DNA of 64,000 nucleotides from Spirochaetales bacterium (lineage in GTDB: Bacteria; Spirochaetota; Spirochaetia; Treponematales; Treponemataceae): contig JAQXNX010000010.1 of assembly GCA_029098225.1 (NCBI GenBank), forward strand, positions 1 to 64,000. The letters are read 5' to 3'. This document shows positions 40,183 to 49,483 of this stretch, in pieces. Below the pieces are notes generated by a model. It did not search any database and was not told the DNA's origin. It was given only the letters and a program-made list of their open reading frames with translations. Every line of letters starts with the position of its first letter. Position 1 is the stretch's first letter. A program made the position numbers and the translations under genes.

Positions 40183-40453
40183 TTCCTACAAAACTGTGTA
40201 AAATGCTGTTTTTGTGGGAAGTTTTTCATGATAGAAATTATGAATTTACCTACAAAATCTTGTAAAACAAGATTTTGTAGGTATTTTTTTTGCTTAGGAA
40301 GCATATCTTGACTGTTTGAGAAACAAAAAAGTTAAAATCTGGTAATTTTTTCCTATAAAAACATCCAAATTCGATGTTTTGTAGGAAATTTGTGAAATTA
40401 TACTCTATGTTATTACCTACAAAAATTGAGATTCTCGTATTTTTGTAGGTAAT
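40183..40453. repeat. Array of four hairpins with stem CCTACAAAA/TTTTGTAGG
   Basis: Hairpins at 40183-40219, 40247-40283 (perfect 16-bp stem, 5-nt loop, then eight T), 40350-40387 and 40412-40453 (perfect 15-bp stem). The stem core CCTACAAAA...TTTTGTAGG is shared by all (hairpin 3 has CCTATAAAA, hairpin 1 TTTTTGTGGG) but the loops and inner stems differ. No ORF fits. The second hairpin could also terminate transcription from feo. Confidence 0.85.
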
Positions 40454-47027: not shown

Positions 47028-47537
47028 TTAAGCAAGCTTTTTTGTAAACCAGCCCATCAGCTTTTGTGCAATGAAGATATTTACAAAAACAAGAATTGCT
47101 CCGAGTGCCATAAAGGAACCGGCAAAGAGTGCAGAATCTTCAATGCATAAAAGACACTTGCAGATAATCAGGGTGTTTACAGGAAGACAAATCAGACTTG
47201 TGATGCAGGCCGGAATGTAGCGGCGGTAAATGCTTACCTGAATCAGATGAATGAAAAAGTGAAAATCGCAGCCAAGGAAAGCTCCCAGCCAGATGTACCA
47301 GAGAAAATTGCGGTCTATAAAATAGGCAAGTGTTGAAATTGCGATGCACAAAATGAGTTCTTCGTATACGGCAAGTGCAAAGCCTTCTGTGGAAAAGTTT
47401 TTGTAGCGGCGGAGGATAAAAGGAAAACGCTGCTGGAGTTCTGCGGTGTTCTGTCGCAAAAAGTATTTAAAGCCGATTATTTCTTCCATGTCATGAAACA
47501 TAAAAATAATTGGAAAAAGCCAGACGTATTCTTTCAT
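47028..47537 (-). CDS. HXXEE-domain membrane protein
   Basis: A 169-aa protein from ATG 47537 (ribosome site GGAGG; frame open to 47564). Five or so membrane helices; IFMFHDMEEIIGFKYF carries the H-x-x-E-E motif, and FFIHLIQV lies in the middle. Family of unknown function, perhaps zinc-dependent. It belongs to the metal-box regulon. Confidence 0.85.
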   Translation of the reverse strand: MKEYVWLFPIIFMFHDMEEIIGFKYFLRQNTAELQQRFPFILRRYKNFSTEGFALAVYEELILCIAISTLAYFIDRNFLWYIWLGAFLGCDFHFFIHLIQVSIYRRYIPACITSLICLPVNTLIICKCLLCIEDSALFAGSFMALGAILVFVNIFIAQKLMGWFTKKLA

Positions 47538-47623
47538 AAGACCTCCATGTAAGCGACTTAACATGCTGAACTGTCATTCGTAAACGACTTGTCATGCTGA
47601 ACTTGTTTCAGCATCTGTTTTGT

Positions 47624-47659
47624 ATTATATCCTCTTTATATTGGTTAGTCAAAACTAAC
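47624..47659 (-). promoter_or_regulatory. HXXEE gene promoter with metal box
   Basis: Minus strand TTGACT (47647-47652), 17-bp spacer, TATAAT (47624-47629). The perfect box (47644-47659) covers the -35 element. Confidence 0.85.
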
Positions 47660-47680: not shown

Positions 47681-47887
47681 ACGGATAAAATACAGTAAGT
47701 GATGGATTTTATCCGTAGAATTTTTGGTTTATATTCGTTTTTATGTCAGAATCCGGCTTTATTTACGGATAAATTACACTCAAACTATGTTTTTATCCGT
47801 ATTTATTAATTATACAGCAGGGGATTTTAGTGAAAATCTCTTGTTGAATACGGATAAAATTCTGTGGGTAGTAGTATTTATCCGTAT
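47681..47887. repeat. Array of three hairpins with stem ACGGATAAA/TTTATCCGT
   Basis: Hairpins at 47681-47716 (11-bp stem, 14-nt loop), 47764-47801 (10-bp, 18-nt loop) and 47848-47887 (11-bp, 18-nt loop). All stems share ACGGATAAA/TTTATCCGT; loops are unrelated. Same plan as the array at 40183 with a different stem. No ORF covers it, and 47888-48076 shows nothing else. Confidence 0.85.
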
Positions 47888-48076
47888 AAATCCAGGTTTT
47901 CTCGAATAAATACGTCGAGTCTAGATATTCATACTTAAAGCCCTGTCCTTCTTTCAAAAATCTCTGAAAGCGACACCAACCGTGTTGTAAAAATCCATTC
48001 AAAAGGCGCAATCAAAGCTTTTCAAAAAACAATGGAAATATCTTAAAGGATAAAAGCAGTTTGCGGCGTTATAATT

Positions 48077-48136
48077 GTTAGTGGTTGCTAACATAATAAG
48101 AAAATGATATTATTAAACATATTAGTTTTTACTAAC
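48077..48136 (+). promoter_or_regulatory. Enolase promoter with two metal boxes
   Basis: TTGCTA (48085-48090), a 17-bp spacer, and TATTAT (48108-48113, with extended TGA). Box 1 (GTTAGT-N4-GCTAAC, 48077-48092) covers the -35; box 2 (ATTAGT-N4-ACTAAC, 48121-48136) covers the start. Each has one mismatch. Confidence 0.8.

Positions 48137-48154: not shown

Positions 48155-49483
<1,329 letters not shown>

Follow-up and report, generated by a model that had tools for sequence, protein, structure and literature searches.

The multi-operator arrays of repressors and partition proteins, like iteron arrays, are palindromic or direct repeats set in helical phase beside the gene of the protein that binds them. 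In REP/RAYT systems (TnpAREP, REPtrons), a chromosomal enzyme gene is flanked by its own palindromes of 20–50 nt; these also lie elsewhere in intergenic DNA, often in tandem, and their recognition differs between lineages (PMC8266576). In TIGR-Tas systems, short repeated units lie up- or downstream of one effector gene and are conserved within a locus but differ between loci; they are transcribed as guide RNAs with box C/D motifs around 8–12-nt spacers and with variable palindromic stems, and the protein has a Nop domain (PMC12045711).

Here we describe palindrome arrays, in a 64-kb stretch of spirochaete DNA (hereafter called the window) and in related genomes, that resemble each of these systems in part. 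As in REP/RAYT, an enzyme gene is flanked by its own private palindromes. However, the enzyme is modelled as a PD-(D/E)XK fold and not as an HUH (Y1) tyrosine enzyme, and a Pfam scan of nuclease family members contains no HUH transposase family. REP palindromes are preceded by a conserved tetranucleotide, usually GTAG, whereas the 46 distinct stems that we compared have no common flanking tag; REP copies are dispersed in their hundreds, whereas we find few arrays per genome; and here a variable interior lies between conserved arms, with spacing in whole helical turns. As in TIGR-Tas, arrays lie beside one effector gene, repeats are locus-specific and the unit size is near 36 nt. By contrast, the stems here are constant, the interior drifts, the spacing follows the helix and the repeats lack the box C/D arrangement; moreover, a Nop domain is not among the families listed in a Pfam scan of 63 nuclease family members. 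The proteins of multi-operator and iteron arrays are not nucleases, whereas here dozens of lineages, each with another half-site, share the same geometry. The C-terminal fold of the array-linked protein is modelled as like that of I-Bth0305I (an EDxHD homing endonuclease), Bax1, TnsA and Hjc, and its N-terminal half is different. We know of no private palindrome array that accompanies any of these PD-(D/E)XK nucleases.

We propose that the array at position 47681 of the window is a DNA-level binding platform for a cognate predicted nuclease encoded elsewhere in the same genome. From the sequence and model evidence set out below, we give this reading a probability of about 0.72.

Results

Two palindrome arrays in the window

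Positions 47681–47885 hold three perfect 36-nt inverted repeats with identical arms, ACGGATAAA and TTTATCCGT, in the arrangement ACGGATAAA-N18-TTTATCCGT. The 18-nt loops are unrelated among the three repeats, and the start-to-start steps are 84 and 85 nt. A sequence-only reading of this DNA had described a three-hairpin array here with a shared stem and unrelated loops; the array is real, although its end had been placed at 47887, two bases too far. The same reading pointed to an array of the same plan and another stem at 40183. That array is indeed present, and has four repeats at steps of 64, 103 and 64. The repeats, to which no strand is assigned, are:

47681..47716, inverted repeat 1 of the 47681 array, ACGGATAAA-N18-TTTATCCGT; arms identical in the related genomes G240 and G118
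47765..47800, inverted repeat 2 of the 47681 array, 84 bp (8 helical turns) after repeat 1
47850..47885, inverted repeat 3 of the 47681 array, 85 bp after repeat 2
40183..40220, inverted repeat 1 of the 40183 array; its stem core, CCTACAA, is shared with the array beside the nuclease gene on contig C33
40247..40283, inverted repeat 2 of the 40183 array; kept in G240, G242 and G003
40350..40387, inverted repeat 3 of the 40183 array; from the palindrome scan and relatives
40414..40451, inverted repeat 4 of the 40183 array; from the palindrome scan and relatives

A scan for clusters of at least three similar palindromes returned exactly these two arrays in the window, and no cluster in 30 order-3 Markov shuffles of it (30 × 64 kb). 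The exact ACGGATAAA-N18-TTTATCCGT repeat has five copies genome-wide: the three at 47681 and two in a single array on contig C14. A reversed control pattern has no match genome-wide.

Arrays lie upstream of genes for a predicted nuclease

The C14 array (C14:87450-87816) comprises five repeats directly upstream of a gene encoding 286 aa; two repeats have perfect ACGGATAAA arms and the rest have ACGGAGAAA or mixed arms. Relatives of this gene are found in 27 of the 69 genomes of the genus, several per genome (up to 10 matches); many of the compared genomes are incomplete metagenome assemblies, so that failing to find a gene or array in them counts for little. Nearly all near-full-length relatives examined have an upstream palindrome array, each lineage with another stem (CTTACGTAT, TACGGCTAA, GGGCCTGCT, GGCCTACAG, TTTCACATA, ACACGCGAA, GTCATATAA, TTCCGACTT and others). 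The sequence-only reading had suggested a recurring system and advised looking for a shared neighbouring gene. Both ideas are borne out: many genomes contain groups of short, nearly identical stems whose loops vary, stems do not vary freely within one array, and the shared neighbour encodes a predicted nuclease of PD-(D/E)XK fold.

A scan of bacterial genomes found at least 585 stretches encoding relatives of the C14 protein, the best 80 of which belong to Treponema, Fibrobacter, Lachnospiraceae and other Clostridia. An array lies no more than 900 bp upstream of the gene at 54 of the 70 testable loci (those with at least 500 bp of upstream sequence), and the scan detected none at the other 16. 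Farther from genes there are nine array-like clusters in 598 kb, which sets the expectation at 0.014 per 900 bp; five of the nine carry the stem of the local gene or a near variant.

Individual loci vary. The largest array, at L313:426-1427 in G238, has 14 palindromes (TTCCGACAA) at 73–75 bp steps upstream of a nuclease gene and is probably young. Nuclease relatives with no detectable array include those at L195/L326 (G015:C11:133372), L296 and L302, which could reveal the consequences of losing the array or of its divergence. We set aside the clusters at L021, L023, L173, L183 and L339, which differ in geometry or consist of coding sequence or tandem repeats. Two of these, L173:11371-11842 and L021:1152-1310, are tandem repeats (111-nt and 90-nt periods) with short inverted repeats in a different geometry.

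Stems are private to nuclease lineages

Paralogues within one genome have different stems: there are seven such stems in G015, and the diversity in G003 and G238 is similar. To this extent the stem acts as a tag, as the sequence-only reading supposed. However, it is private to a nuclease lineage and not, as that reading had it, to an array, because the 47681 stem recurs at C14:87450-87816, and CCTACAA, the stem core at 40183, is also found in a gene-linked array on C33 and in an orphan array on C12.

The more similar two of the proteins are, the more similar their stems tend to be (Mantel r=0.48, p=0.0005), a correlation of which shared descent could be part of the cause, since it inflates such a test. 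In a joint regression of stem against protein, the N-terminal half takes 0.74 and the C-terminal half 0.10.

Spacing follows the DNA helix

Steps between neighbouring palindromes are integer multiples of 10.55 bp, a period equal to the helical repeat of B-DNA (150 steps, 46 distinct stems; R=0.907, phase near zero, array-level p about 1e-17). They fall into classes of 63–64, 73–75, 84–86, 94–96, 104–106 and so on. Across the 46 distinct stems, pairing and identity are limited to arms of about 9–11 bp and are at background level just outside them, and no interior position is conserved across arrays as a motif. Mismatches within arms comprise 29 G·T and 34 A·C, so that wobble pairing is not favoured; that A·C is as frequent as G·T argues against selection for an RNA hairpin. 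Judged by these features, the window palindromes are probably DNA-level sites and not RNA hairpins. We also considered loops as replaceable guides and ruled this out: orthologous loops drift gradually, site by site.

Orphan arrays keep their arms

Our census of the genome that contains the window covered 1.67 Mb by scan, and the whole genome by pattern searches for three stems. The scanned part holds six arrays, two gene-linked and four orphan. There are two intact nuclease genes, one on C14 (stem ACGGATAA) and one on C33 (L172:10593-11633, stem CCTACAA). A fragment at C10:345703, which retains the C-terminal part of such a gene, has its nearest relatives in the GTCATATAA lineage. The orphan stems are ACGGATAA at 47681, CCTACAA at 40183 and at C12:75446, and TCATATAA at C14:73840. 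All four orphan arrays have stems of resident nuclease lineages, and the two in the window match the genome's own two intact nucleases. Whole-genome searches with CCTACAA and TCATATAA gave matches in arrays only, and each stem searched has one to three arrays in this genome. No nuclease remnant was found within about 4 kb of the orphan arrays at 47681, 40183, C14:73840 and, in G015, L200; for the C12 array, the check was an inventory of open reading frames up to 1.5 kb away.

The 47681 array occupies the same position in G240 (92% across the region) and in G118 (89%). In G221 (72%) it has altered, partly mismatched arms, and the nuclease of that genome has a different stem, ATTACGGAC. G015 and G003 have no array upstream of enolase; in G003 this is so although a nuclease with TACGGATAA is present. 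The array's unchanged location in G240 and G118 shows it to be older than a recent insertion. We dropped a recent clean insertion upstream of enolase as a candidate origin, the flanks being different in G015, G003 and G043. The 40183 array persists in G240, G242 and G003. No gene with exactly its stem was found in G003 or G240, both incomplete assemblies, though both keep the array.

Arms are conserved both at orphan arrays and beside the gene. Between the window genome and G118, 0 of 54 arm positions of the 47681 array have changed, against 23 of 152 in loops and linkers (p=8e-4). The corresponding figures for the 40183 array are 4/72 and 80/197 (against G003, p=3e-9), and for the gene-linked C14 array 5/90 and 132/276 (against G240, p=5e-15). 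As far as these alignments tell, the arms alone are retained in older orthologous arrays, and loops and linkers drift.

Some arrays are built of near-identical tandem units of 74, 85 or 95 bp (L130, L103 and L097). Some genes have array copies on both sides, with identities of 98% (L140), 95% (L155) and 80% (L110). These three are Fibrobacter loci, at which the flanking arrays, as direct repeats, could allow gene excision.

The neighbours of the 47681 array are:

47028..47564, minus strand, HXXEE-domain gene (PF13787), left neighbour, pointing away from the array; still adjoins the array in G240
47947..48048 (approximate bounds), plus strand, remaining 3′ end of an otherwise deleted HEAT-repeat gene, which in relatives comes after the array; from BLAST to G043, with intact PadR-like and HEAT genes in G240 (L284:1451-2640)
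48164..49483, plus strand, enolase gene, right neighbour; enolase orthologues in L063-L091 have no upstream array

In G240 the order is HXXEE, array, PadR-like gene and then HEAT-repeat gene. Measured against that order, the window genome has lost the PadR-like regulator and most of the HEAT-repeat gene between array and enolase, and has kept the array and the HEAT tail.

Palindromes that look like DtxR/Fur-type boxes lie near the HXXEE and enolase genes (GTTAGTCAAAACTAAC at 47641–47656, GTTAGTGGTTGCTAAC at 48078–48093 and TTAGTTTTTACTAA at 48123–48136), and the GTTAGTCAAAACTAAC box is conserved beside enolase in G015 and G003. The sequence-only reading had remarked on metal-box promoters near both arrays. 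The boxes near the 47681 array are real sequences and do not depend on it; we treat their proximity as coincidence because gene-linked arrays elsewhere do not depend on such boxes.

The linked protein

By sequence, the nuclease has no significant family in Pfam, NCBIfam or PDB, and PADLOC gives partial similarity only, confined to the C-terminal region of PDC-S68, a large candidate protein. Modelling is more informative. The whole-protein model has a pLDDT of 92.7, and an AlphaFold2 model of the C-terminal domain alone has 95.6. The C-terminal model aligns with the catalytic domain of I-Bth0305I (VIA-align Z 9.1, rmsd 2.6, 89 aligned), and also with Bax1 (Z 8.3), VRR_NUC (7.2) and TnsA (7.0); Foldseek returns Bax1 at E 6e-4. 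On the strength of these models, the C-terminal half is a PD-(D/E)XK core fold. Residues E179, D214, E229, H230 and E266 are invariant in 63 sequences, and include the conserved acidic residues expected of a PD-(D/E)XK enzyme. Catalytic activity of the linked protein is likely.

The N-terminal half is modelled as a helix, a β-hairpin and a long helix. Its matches are non-specific coiled coils (TasH, at Z 9.0, covers the coiled-coil helices only, as do Rad50 and prefoldin), and there is no recognised DNA-binding domain among them. Both intact genes are under purifying selection, with dN/dS of 0.09–0.17 for the C14 gene (four genomes) and about 0.22 for the C33 gene, and these low values indicate that both proteins are functional.

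The C-terminal nuclease domain also ends large proteins of about 900–1240 aa (L047-L058, PADLOC PDC-S68), one set of which is listed as candidate phage defence (PDC-S68). No arrays were found at these distant partial homologues, or at enolase loci other than the window's own.

Discussion

The stem tracks the protein, the steps are multiples of 10.55 bp and G·U is not favoured in the arms; together these findings make it probable that the cognate nuclease recognises the palindromes as DNA. That the palindromes are bound by the linked protein is, from the pattern of sequences, very likely. A dimer would occupy each palindrome, contacting the two half-sites that the conserved arms provide. Since palindromes lie whole helical turns apart, bound dimers would sit on the same face of the DNA and could act cooperatively. 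The reader of the stem would most likely be the N-terminal half, with the C-terminal PD-(D/E)XK domain as the putative catalytic part. Beside its own gene, the array would most plausibly serve as an autoregulatory operator that keeps a dangerous nuclease low; going by the position of the array alone, autoregulation has about an even chance of being right. At the orphan arrays, including both in the window, the same protein would bind in trans, and selection would maintain these sites. Arrays may grow by tandem duplication of a whole-turn unit, after which the arms alone would be retained.

The main rival is a selfish element of the REP/RAYT kind, in which the nuclease would cut at or near the palindromes and so spread or expand the arrays, the orphans would be dispersed copies, and any regulation would be secondary. 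Much of what such an element would produce is seen. The genes are patchy and expanded, young arrays consist of near-identical tandem units, and arrays flank some genes on both sides. Both the orphan arrays with stems of resident lineages and the clusters away from genes that carry the local gene's stem could be read as dispersal. However, the orphan arrays open to comparison are old and in place in several species, and their loops are unlike the gene-linked ones. Flank comparisons turned up no clean boundary of an insertion, and there are very few copies. Nor is the full-length family found on viral contigs, which contain no relatives of the C14 protein, or on plasmids, whose records give only partial matches. 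(Phage records contain two relatives, one of them near full length at 28% identity.) We regard the selfish element as possible but unlikely.

An RNA-level function, with arrays transcribed and the hairpins acting as guides, processing sites or 5′ leader structures, would explain why the plus strand folds strongly (z −7.2) and why arrays usually lie just upstream of a gene. It has precedents in TIGR-Tas and CRISPR, where arrays also accompany nucleases (PMC12045711). This explanation sits badly with steps quantised to the helical repeat of B-DNA, with arms in which G·U is not favoured over A·C and with loops that drift site by site in orthologous arrays. Some arrays, moreover, lie downstream of the nuclease gene or far from it, and Rfam 15 at gathering score has no match anywhere in the window. 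The helical phasing and the lack of a G·U bias also speak against processing of the arrays to RNAs of about 36 nt. An RNA function is thus very improbable.

Alternatively, the palindromes could be operators of some other regulator that controls the nuclease genes and a few other promoters, and several arrays do lie between divergent genes. On that view, every nuclease lineage and stem would have to come with a co-inherited regulator of its own. As it is, the stem follows the nuclease, mainly its N-terminal half, and no other gene is common to the arrays examined, which makes a separate regulator a very remote prospect. Ordinary terminators or chance hairpins, to which isolated occurrences of the same arm sequence at the ends of genes in relatives (L026 and L027) might point, are contradicted by the regularity of the arrays, the shuffles, the conservation and the phasing, and can practically be discounted.

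The cognate nuclease is the reading that we prefer, and a broader proposal goes with it. REP/RAYT probably has an unrelated second natural class of enzyme and private-palindrome system beside it: PD-(D/E)XK nucleases with evolvable DNA addresses, laid out as one-face palindrome arrays in cis and in trans, in Spirochaetota, Fibrobacterota and Clostridia. We found no earlier description of a nuclease with a private palindrome array in the open-access literature, which was the scope of the search (subscription journals lay outside it). The three hairpins at 47681 are a member of this apparently undescribed system of rumen and gut bacteria, one that is detached from its gene and has been preserved in evolution.

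Should the stem be read by the protein, the nuclease family, a large one with at least 585 matches, is one in which specificity shifts by lineage, the geometry stays fixed and the target lies beside the gene. The preserved orphan arrays raise the question of what the cell, or the element, gains from nuclease sites near unrelated genes. If our reading is true, the family would be an independent counterpart to REP/RAYT, and with so many natural pairs of protein and half-site its recognition code would be learnable directly from sequence.
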